Shown here piece after piece: positions 31,136 to 37,452 of a stretch of 39,156 bases of DNA. Made by a program: the position numbers and the translations under genes. This DNA is from a virus, in the IMG/VR virus record IMGVR_UViG_3300021405_000032, positions 1 through 39,156 of that record. One strand, written 5' to 3'. Within the stretch, counting starts at the first letter, position 1; each line of letters begins with the position of its first letter. The notes beneath the pieces were generated by a model. That model worked only from the letters and a program-made list of their open reading frames with translations, had not been told where the DNA came from and searched no databases.

Positions 31136-31230
31136 GGAAGAGTGGCCGAGTGGTTGATGGCGGCGGTCTTGAAAACCGTTAAGGGCCTTAAACAAGTCCT
31201 TCGTGGGTTCAAATCCTACCTCTTCCTCCA
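31136..31230 (+). tRNA. tRNA-Ser (anticodon TGA)
   Basis: 95 nt with encoded CCA. Acceptor GGAAGAG pairs with CTCTTCC. D-arm GCC/GGC, anticodon stem GCGGT/ACCGT, loop CTTGAAA, long variable arm (class II), T-arm GTGGG-TTCAAAT-CCTAC. The discriminator is T, not the usual G. Reads UCA. Confidence 0.93.
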
Positions 31231-31922: not shown

Positions 31923-32039
31923 GTGGAACTAGGATGTCGGCTTAGAAGCAGCCATCGTCTAAGGAGTTGTGAAGCCACCCTGTGTGGTGGTGGGCCTGAA
32001 GCTACGGCCCCATTTGGCGTAATAGCACACTTTTTCCAC
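31923..32039 (+). ncRNA. 23S rRNA GTPase-associated-centre mimic
   Basis: Bases 31931-31956 match the universally conserved L11-binding helix of 23S rRNA (E. coli about 1054-1079) at 25 of 26 positions, as I recall that sequence. Bases 32017-32031 match the partner strand GCGTAATAGCTCACT at 14 of 15. GTGGAA (31923-31928) and TTCCAC (32034-32039) form a closing stem like helix 42. About 50 extra bases sit in what would be the helix 44 loop and fold as CCACC/GGTGG and GGGCC/GGCCC hairpins. In the ribosome this fold binds L11, EF-G, EF-Tu and RelA-linked signals. A decoy or scaffold role is inference. Confidence 0.75.
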
Positions 32040-32068
32040 TTGACACGACCTCTGTATGGTGATATGGA
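32040..32068 (+). promoter_or_regulatory. Sigma70-like promoter
   Basis: TTGACA (32040-32045), 17 bases, TATGGA (32063-32068). It begins exactly where the rRNA-like fold ends and precedes the gene at 32166. It overlaps the tRNA-like element at 32061, so both cannot act from the same transcript start. Confidence 0.6.
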
Positions 32069-32130
32069 GAAGCATGGTGACTTCCTGTCCCGCAAGGGCG
32101 AGATGCAAGGTTCGAGTCCTTGTCGTATCA
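32061..32130 (+). ncRNA. tRNA-like element (possibly degenerate tRNA)
   Basis: 70 nt. Acceptor GATATGG pairs with TCGTATC (two G-U pairs), perfect T-arm CAAGG-TTCGAGT-CCTTG, short D-arm AAG/CTT. The anticodon arm is poor (CTGTC/GGCGA around CCGCAAG, with C instead of the invariant T33) or is replaced by a GCAA hairpin. No CCA is encoded. Confidence 0.4.
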
Positions 32131-32165
32131 GAAACGACGGTTTCAACCATCAGAGTGTTCGTGTT

Positions 32166-33634: not shown

Positions 33635-33731
33635 GGAAGTATGGCTGAGTCTGGCTTAAGGCGGCGGTTTACTAAACCGCAGAGGGCGTTAACCGCGTCC
33701 TCCGTGGGTTCAAATCCTACTGCTTCCTCCA
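33635..33731 (+). tRNA. tRNA-Ser (anticodon ACT)
   Basis: 97 nt with encoded CCA. Acceptor GGAAGTA with TGCTTCC (one G-U), D-stem GCT/GGC, anticodon stem GCGGT/ACCGC, loop TTACTAA, long class II variable arm, T-arm GTGGG-TTCAAAT-CCTAC. The discriminator is T. A34 in a Ser AGY tRNA is rare; GCT is usual. Confidence 0.88.
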
Positions 33732-34186: not shown

Positions 34187-34217
34187 GGGCTGAACCATTC
34201 AAAAGAGCCCCTTTTTT
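34187..34217 (+). terminator. Rho-independent terminator
   Basis: GGGCT (34187-34191) pairs with AGCCC (34206-34210), followed by six T (34212-34217). An alternative ATGGTT/AACCAT hairpin overlaps it. It ends the small basic gene. Confidence 0.65.
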
Positions 34218-34340
34218 ACTAACGAGCGAGGACAAGGCGTCATCGCATATGAAAACGATAGGTGCCAGTGATGTACGAACTGGCGGAAGCTGTTTGAGGC
34301 TGAAGGCACGTGCAAATCCACCTATCGCTCGTTAGTAAAA
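34214..34340 (+). ncRNA. Structured RNA with a 15 bp closing stem
   Basis: A perfect 15 bp stem pairs 34214-34228 with 34326-34340. An inner perfect 9 bp stem pairs 34256-34264 with 34319-34327 (sharing two bases), and a GCCAGT/ACTGGC hairpin pairs 34264-34269 with 34279-34284. No coding frame. The left arm overlaps the T-run of the preceding terminator. Family unknown. Confidence 0.5.
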
Positions 34341-34348
34341 GAGTTTAT

Positions 34349-34536
34349 GCTTGTGTCGGTACTCAGGATTGACCAATTGAAACGACGTAACGCTAATTAC
34401 GCACGTGCTTCGGCAGTTCTCGTCCCATGCTTTAGCGGGCTCAATGGAGTATGCCTTGCCACGTAGAATGATAGGGTGTGCGGTACTCCTAGTGACGATA
34501 AAATGATTGGGGTTCGACTCCCCTTACAGGCTACCA
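34349..34536 (+). ncRNA. Oversized tRNA-like RNA
   Basis: GCTTGTG (34349-34355) pairs with TACAGGC (34525-34531) as an acceptor, followed by TACCA. A D-arm-like GGT/ACC and a T-arm GGGG-TTCGACT-CCCC are present. About 110 extra bases sit between them, with helices ATTGA/TCAAT, CGTAA/TTACG and GGAGTA/TACTCC. The layout resembles tmRNA, but it is short and has no convincing tag frame. Confidence 0.4.
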
Positions 34537-36769: not shown

Positions 36770-36779
36770 AGGACTGATT

Positions 36780-36902
36780 TATACAATCTCCGTTCATCCT
36801 GATAGTTCGTGTTTAGCATTGAGTTGGGATGTCCGCCACAATTTTGTATTGGACGCGTGACGTGTTATCGTGTGGCCACACGCCGTCAGCGGAGATTGTA
36901 TA
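36780..36902 (+). ncRNA. Cloverleaf-like structured RNA
   Basis: A perfect 13 bp closing stem (36780-36792 with 36890-36902) encloses three helices: CATCC/GGATG, GTCC/GGAC with an inner ACAA/TTGT, and TGACG/CGTCA enclosing the palindrome GTGTGGCCACAC. It has four-way-junction topology but no T-loop or anticodon arm. Sits between a late-type motif and tRNA-Trp. Family unknown. Confidence 0.55.
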
Positions 36903-36912
36903 GATCAGATAT

Positions 36913-36998
36913 AGGAGTCTGGCAGATTGGGAATGCGGCGGTCTCCAAAACCGCTTGTCGGAAGACTAGAGTGGGTTCAATTCCTACGGCTCCTGCCA
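36913..36998 (+). tRNA. tRNA-Trp (anticodon CCA) with long variable arm
   Basis: 86 nt with encoded CCA. Acceptor AGGAGTC with GGCTCCT (one T-G pair), D-stem GCA/TGC, anticodon stem GCGGT/ACCGC, loop CTCCAAA, T-arm GTGGG-TTCAATT-CCTAC, discriminator G. A1-T72, G73 and the anticodon fit TrpRS identity. The variable region is 16 nt with a GTC/GAC stem, class II-like; normal tRNA-Trp has about five. Confidence 0.85.
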
Positions 36999-37377: not shown

Positions 37378-37452
37378 CGGCCACTAGCTGAGATAGATTA
37401 GCGGCGGTCTGAAAAGCCGCAAAGATTGGTGCGATACCAATGAGGCCGACCA
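37378..37452 (+). tRNA. tRNA-Phe (anticodon GAA)
   Basis: 75 nt with encoded CCA, discriminator A. Acceptor CGGCCAC with GAGGCCG (one A-A mismatch), D-stem GCT/AGC with no GG in the loop, anticodon stem GCGGT/GCCGC, loop CTGAAAA, T-stem ATTGG/CCAAT with the atypical loop TGCGATA (no TTC). Clearly divergent. Confidence 0.78.

Follow-up and report, generated by a model that had tools for sequence, protein, structure and literature searches.

Textbooks assign long variable arms only to the tRNAs for Ser, Leu, bacterial Tyr and Sec. Bacterial tRNA-Trp(CCA) is a class I tRNA, with a variable region of 4 to 5 nt, and its bacterial determinants comprise the anticodon C34 C35 A36, the discriminator G73, A9, and the acceptor pairs A1-U72, G2-C71, G3-C70, G4-C69, and G5-C68 (PMC9976931). 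SerRS recognizes chiefly the long arm of its tRNA and does not read the anticodon. Tyr tRNAs of bacteria, which are class II, have a variable arm with a short stem and a long 3' linker, together with G1-C72 and A73. Long arms on unexpected isotypes have been described before. In certain nematode class II tRNAs, the long arm goes with the anticodon of an isotype that is normally class I; these are eukaryotic, carry Gly, Val, Pro, or Arg anticodons, and are reported to be apparently not functional in vivo (PMC4810241). The selC*/allo-tRNAs also join a long variable arm to an unexpected isotype, with lengthened acceptor and anticodon stems (PMC7609411). We found no description of a long-arm phage tRNA-Trp in the open-licence literature, and the word 'variable' is absent from the phiCbK/Colossus genome paper. 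Thus, as far as open-licence papers show, the class to which the present gene belongs is undescribed.

The gene lies in a 39-kb IMG/VR fragment (39,156 nucleotides, here called the window) from a large phage whose replication proteins are of the T4 type. It occupies positions 36913 to 36998 on the plus strand, and it is recognized as a tRNA-Trp(CCA) by ARAGORN, by Rfam RF00005 (46.7 bits), and by its fold. Direct reading gives the 5' strand of the acceptor stem, AGGAGTC (36913 to 36919; A1, G2, G3, A4, G5); the D arm, GCAGATTGGGAATGC, with a 3-bp stem (36922 to 36936); the anticodon arm, GCGGT-CTCCAAA-ACCGC; the T arm, GTGGG-TTCAATT-CCTAC (36971 to 36987); and the 3' acceptor strand GGCTCCT followed by G73 and an encoded CCA end (36988 to 36998). 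The anticodon loop spans 36943 to 36949, and both ARAGORN and direct reading place the CCA anticodon at 36945 to 36947. Between the anticodon and T arms, the 16-nt variable region TTGTCGGAAGACTAGA (36955 to 36970) contains a 3-bp hairpin, GTC-GGAA-GAC (36957 to 36966), and then a 4-nt 3' linker, TAGA. Folding by minimum free energy gives all five arms, this hairpin included; the fold energy alone is no better than that of shuffled sequences (z -0.89). A preliminary description of this DNA had listed the CCA anticodon, A1-T72, G73, and a 16-nt variable arm, all of which can be read directly in the window.

Like bacterial tRNA-Trp, the window tRNA has the CCA anticodon in a CTCCAAA loop, G73, A1-U72, G2-C71, G3-C70, and G5-C68. 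Unlike it, the window tRNA has a 3-bp D stem, A4-U69, G9, and a hairpin in a variable region of 16 nt, and because of this last feature it is classed as a class II variant rather than a canonical tRNA-Trp. An origin from tRNA-Sec was rejected on stem lengths, since the acceptor and T stems are 7 and 5 bp rather than the 8/5 or 9/3 of tRNA-Sec and allo-tRNAs. Other tRNA-like stretches in the window are degenerate, and one might suppose that this gene too is decaying, its variable region having drifted in a tRNA that no longer functions. This seems very improbable, given that all its stems are paired, its T and anticodon loops are intact, CCA is encoded, and the Trp acceptor determinants are present; in addition, R1-U72 and G73 are held across the long-arm Trp tRNAs among the matches listed.

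Taken together, the sequence comparisons make it probable that the window tRNA reads UGG and is charged with Trp by the host TrpRS, as one member of a recurrent phage class of many origins, in which the acceptor end of tRNA-Trp and a CCA anticodon would be set on a class II body. TrpRS would read the anticodon and the acceptor end, where the major determinants are in place. Two minor ones known from B. subtilis and E. coli, G4-C69 and A9, are replaced by A4-U69 and G9. The minimal function would then be to provide Trp-tRNA for UGG codons in infected cells, with the phage tRNA adding to or replacing the host tRNA-Trp.

A different reading is that a Ser tRNA has had its anticodon remodeled and remains a substrate of SerRS, alone or alongside TrpRS; UGG would then be read partly as Ser. 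This reading, to which we give a low probability, draws on the statement of the preliminary description that SerRS reads the long arm rather than the anticodon, which agrees with published work (PMC9976931). The acceptor end points the other way. The window tRNA has A1-U72 where Ser tRNAs have G1-C72. G73 is a determinant for Ser as well as for Trp, and the window tRNA has it, but U73 is found in the Ser tRNAs of the phage itself. Among the matches listed, R1-U72 is present in 69 of 84 unique long-arm Trp tRNAs compared with 7 of 118 Ser tRNAs (p 1e-30), and in 47/61 compared with the same 7/118 after near-copies are collapsed; its frequency in short-arm Trp tRNAs is 71/102. A classifier tested by leave-one-out assigns the acceptor ends of these 84 listed tRNAs to Trp in 75 cases and to Ser in 7, and it places that of the window tRNA 6.2 nats closer to Trp than to Ser. 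There is no evident reason for a Ser-charged tRNA to retain U72.

The phage's own genes bear on the same question. Eight UGG codons in the window genes for ThyX, RNA ligase, and clamp loader fall opposite Trp in alignments with distant solved proteins, and not one falls opposite Ser. These alignments indicate that UGG means Trp to the phage, although a low level of Ser insertion would still be compatible with them. Since the Trp acceptor end is kept and UGG faces Trp, a Trp-charged tRNA with a class II body fits best, and serine charging appears unlikely. For the reading of tRNA genes in general, a long arm by itself is no proof of serine charging.

The shape of the arm also separates this tRNA from those for Ser. 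The two Ser tRNAs of the window used for comparison, tRNA-Ser(TGA) (31136 to 31230, plus strand) and tRNA-Ser(ACT) (33635 to 33731, plus strand), both have G1-C72 and U73, and their variable arms have stems of 6 and 8 bp, respectively, each followed by a 1-nt linker; in the Trp arm, 3 bp are followed by 4 unpaired 3' nucleotides. Among phage tRNAs of the contigs analyzed, the proportion with a 3' linker of at least 3 nt is 1/115 for Ser, 4/91 for Leu, and 37/45 for Tyr tRNAs, 48/74 for long-arm Trp tRNAs among the matches listed, and 45/60 for long-arm tRNAs of other class I isotypes. The 4-nt linker thus lies beyond the 0 to 2 nt of Ser geometry, and a classifier prefers Tyr to Ser for the arm geometry by 2.3 nats. 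From the linker statistics and the 3-bp stem, the arm is therefore Tyr-shaped, not Ser-shaped; the window tRNA differs from bacterial tRNA-Tyr in its anticodon, in G73, and in A1-U72. An arm of this shape, with its short stem and long linker, should keep SerRS from using the tRNA.

What had been observed of the tRNA, its anticodon, its acceptor features, and the length of its variable region stands, but the arm had been called Ser-like, and this does not fit its 3 bp and 4-nt linker. It had also been noted that the anticodon and T stems equal those of the phage Ser tRNAs, a resemblance that counts for the Ser reading. The T stem GTGGG/CCTAC is indeed common to both Ser tRNAs, and the anticodon stem GCGGT/ACCGC is identical in tRNA-Ser(ACT) but not fully so in tRNA-Ser(TGA), which has ACCGT. 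However, the T arm also matches, at 17/17 positions, that of an ordinary short-arm tRNA-Trp from Serratia phage BF, so the stems shared with Ser are not diagnostic.

The combination is not peculiar to this phage, a point absent from the preliminary description. A pattern scan of viral contigs for CCA tRNAs, requiring CTCCAAANCC and GGTTCRANTCC, finds at least about 115 loci that have a tRNA-Trp(CCA) with a long variable region. ARAGORN calls nearly all of the listed matches tRNA-Trp(CCA), at least 84 of them unique with a variable region of at least 9 nt. When CCA tRNAs were collected without regard to arm length, only 2 of 119 had such a region. The long-arm class would accordingly be a minority of some 2%, an estimate that is tied to the search pattern and takes in prophage or host genes. 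When bacterial genomes were scanned, ARAGORN confirmed 24/114 matches, a few of these being artefacts, and the matches were mostly due to chance; many of the confirmed genes lie in phage-like tRNA arrays.

Close relatives sharing the tRNA region of the window phage were searched for and none was found; therefore, a series of Caulobacter and Brevundimonas phages was used in place of orthologs. In these phages tRNA-Trp heads a conserved Trp-Gly-Gly-Glu-Asp array. In this syntenic Trp slot phiCbK has a variable region of 5 nt and Kabachok one of 8 nt; CcrColossus and CcrPW both have 14 nt, and Bajun has 16. The long form thus sits in the tRNA-Trp slot, whether the arm grew there or another gene was substituted. 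In the cultured phages CcrColossus, CcrPW, and Brevundimonas phage Bajun, the long-arm genes are annotated as plain tRNA-Trp. Their tRNAs share with the window tRNA the CCA anticodon, U72, G73, and a hairpin arm (with a 3-nt linker), but their bodies differ from it. The tRNA-Trp of Vibrio phage VBP47 has a variable region of 12 to 13 nt with no clear stem. phiCbK itself, considered at first for its 84-nt annotation, was dropped as a long-arm case since ARAGORN gives an ordinary 76-nt tRNA-Trp with a 5-nt variable region.

The source of the body was sought by comparing tRNAs from which the arm had been deleted and in which the anticodon was masked. Among the tRNAs compared, the nearest body is that of a phage long-arm tRNA-Cys(GCA) in L114 (90%, with BLAST support), followed by the two Ser tRNAs of the window (84 and 83%) and, at 82%, by the short-arm tRNA-Trp of Serratia phage BF. 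The L114 D arm, together with the next base (G), is identical to that of the window tRNA. Two other phage long-arm tRNA-Cys genes, L008 and L052, have arms GTCGTAAGACTAT and GTCGTTAGACTAT close to that of the window, with the shared hairpin GTC-NNNN-GAC-TA. All three Cys tRNAs differ from the window tRNA in having G34, U73, and G1-C72, and the change of G34 to C34 alone would convert the GCA anticodon to CCA. A 20-isotype classifier of the body gives Cys 0, Ser -1.0, and Trp -2.5 nats, which is no separation, and it assigns 33/104 bodies to Ser. A Ser body for the window tRNA had come out of a four-class classifier without Cys; this result vanished once all isotypes were included.

A phylogeny, which had been suggested as a check, joins the window tRNA to the L114 Cys gene and keeps it apart from the window Ser genes, in a poorly resolved tree of 51 columns with weak support. 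The same tree has 26 label changes for long-arm Trp tRNAs, of which supported branches require at least 5, and indicates many label changes rather than exact donors; the long-arm Trp class would thus have several origins, on Ser-, Tyr-, Trp-, and Cys-like bodies. A Cys donor for the window body is what these comparisons suggest, and descent from a Ser tRNA is not favored, even though the window Ser tRNAs rank second and third among the nearest bodies and CCA tRNAs on Ser bodies (G1-C72, G73) do exist in a few bacterial metagenome-assembled contigs (L313 and L352). The idea of anticodon remodeling remains plausible to the extent that a body of another isotype has acquired a Trp anticodon, but the proposed Ser donor is less favored than a Cys donor.

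Lys and Asn tRNAs, like those for Trp, are normally class I, and long arms are found on phage tRNAs for Cys, His, Lys, Asn, Met, Arg, and Gln as well. The usual nucleotide 73 is kept in 5/5 of the long-arm Cys, 9/11 His, 8/8 Asn, and 9/12 Lys tRNAs. Long-arm tRNAs of class I isotypes number 50/570 in contigs that have a long-arm tRNA-Trp versus 13/667 in contigs not chosen by arm length. As further examples, CcrColossus has a long-arm tRNA-Lys(CTT) and tRNA-Asn(GTT) (L361, 7020-7109 and 14055-14143), and both tRNA-Lys genes of phiCbK are long-armed (L371, 25141-25227 and 25234-25324).

The arm may be present through tolerance, or it may protect against host enzymes that target tRNA. The second idea, that the long arm of tRNA-Trp and other phage isotypes is an adaptation against such attack, extends and is compatible with charging by TrpRS, and we put it forward tentatively. 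The range of isotypes affected, their retention of nucleotide 73, and their enrichment beside long-arm tRNA-Trp are in its favor, but drift in a tolerant region would yield similar data, and we know of no nuclease that reads the variable region of tRNA-Trp. Phage tRNAs have been proposed to evade tRNA-targeting defense by changes in the anticodon loop, and that paper does not mention the variable arm (PMC10264068). A still broader idea, that phages repeatedly recast tRNAs of several isotypes in a class II form with a Tyr-type arm to yield tRNAs charged by the host but unseen by tRNA-cleaving or -editing enzymes, is somewhat more doubtful. If phages do routinely give long arms to Trp, Cys, His, Lys, Asn, and Met tRNAs and the charging signals of each isotype are kept, tRNA class would be far more plastic than supposed, and the long arm must act, or be tolerated, in infection. 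The cultured phages CcrColossus and CcrPW make such tRNAs directly testable, and long-arm phage tRNAs are natural designs for orthogonal tRNA engineering.

Some bacterial metagenome-assembled contigs (L313, L352, L321, L343) have CCA tRNAs on clear Ser (G1-C72, G73) or Leu (A73) bodies; these are better candidates for mis-sense or recoding than the window gene.

Other tRNA-like stretches occur in the window. A tRNA-Phe(GAA)-like gene (37378-37449, plus strand) scores 40.1 bits with Rfam but has an atypical T loop (GGTGCGATACC) and no ARAGORN call. Conversely, ARAGORN calls a tRNA-Cys(GCA) (32060-32131, plus strand) that Rfam does not support; its acceptor and anticodon stems are irregular, and it is probably degenerate or a false call. 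T-arm-like motifs (GGTTCGA..CC), with tRNA-like 3' halves but no tRNA call, are present at 34511, 35602, and 35664, and the segment 35638-35684 is mascRNA-like at 27 bits, under the cut-off. Two 19-nt inverted repeats, 95% complementary, lie at 36774-36908 and 34211-34343 and enclose 97 and 95 nt, respectively; the first stops 4 nt before the tRNA-Trp gene. They are possibly a repeated structured RNA or a tRNA-leader element.

Finally, a non-coding element at 31923-32039 (plus strand) copies the GTPase-associated center of 23S rRNA. It consists of GGATGTxGGCTTAGAAGCAGCCATCxTTTAAAGAGTG, an insert of about 50 to 230 nt, and GGCGTAAxAGCxCAC. The element has no Rfam family, with a weak match to LSU rRNA (20.8-25.9 bits) only in the window, and a literature search for it found nothing. 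It is also present in GAP32 (L375, 1494-1744), CBB (L376), XacN1 (L377), Aeromonas phage 4_4572 (L378), pf16 (L382), and UNO-G1W1 (L383), with partial sequence matches in BF, XbC2, XaC1, ME3, Astolliot, and Kaldavass, and it lies mostly in gene-free gaps. Possibly it is a decoy for L11 or translation factors. Its closing stem varies in sequence between phages while pairing is kept, as in pf16 (GTGCAGTGG/CCACTGCAC), XacN1 (CTGTGATGG/CCATCACAG), and UNO (TACAGAGG/CCTCTGTA).
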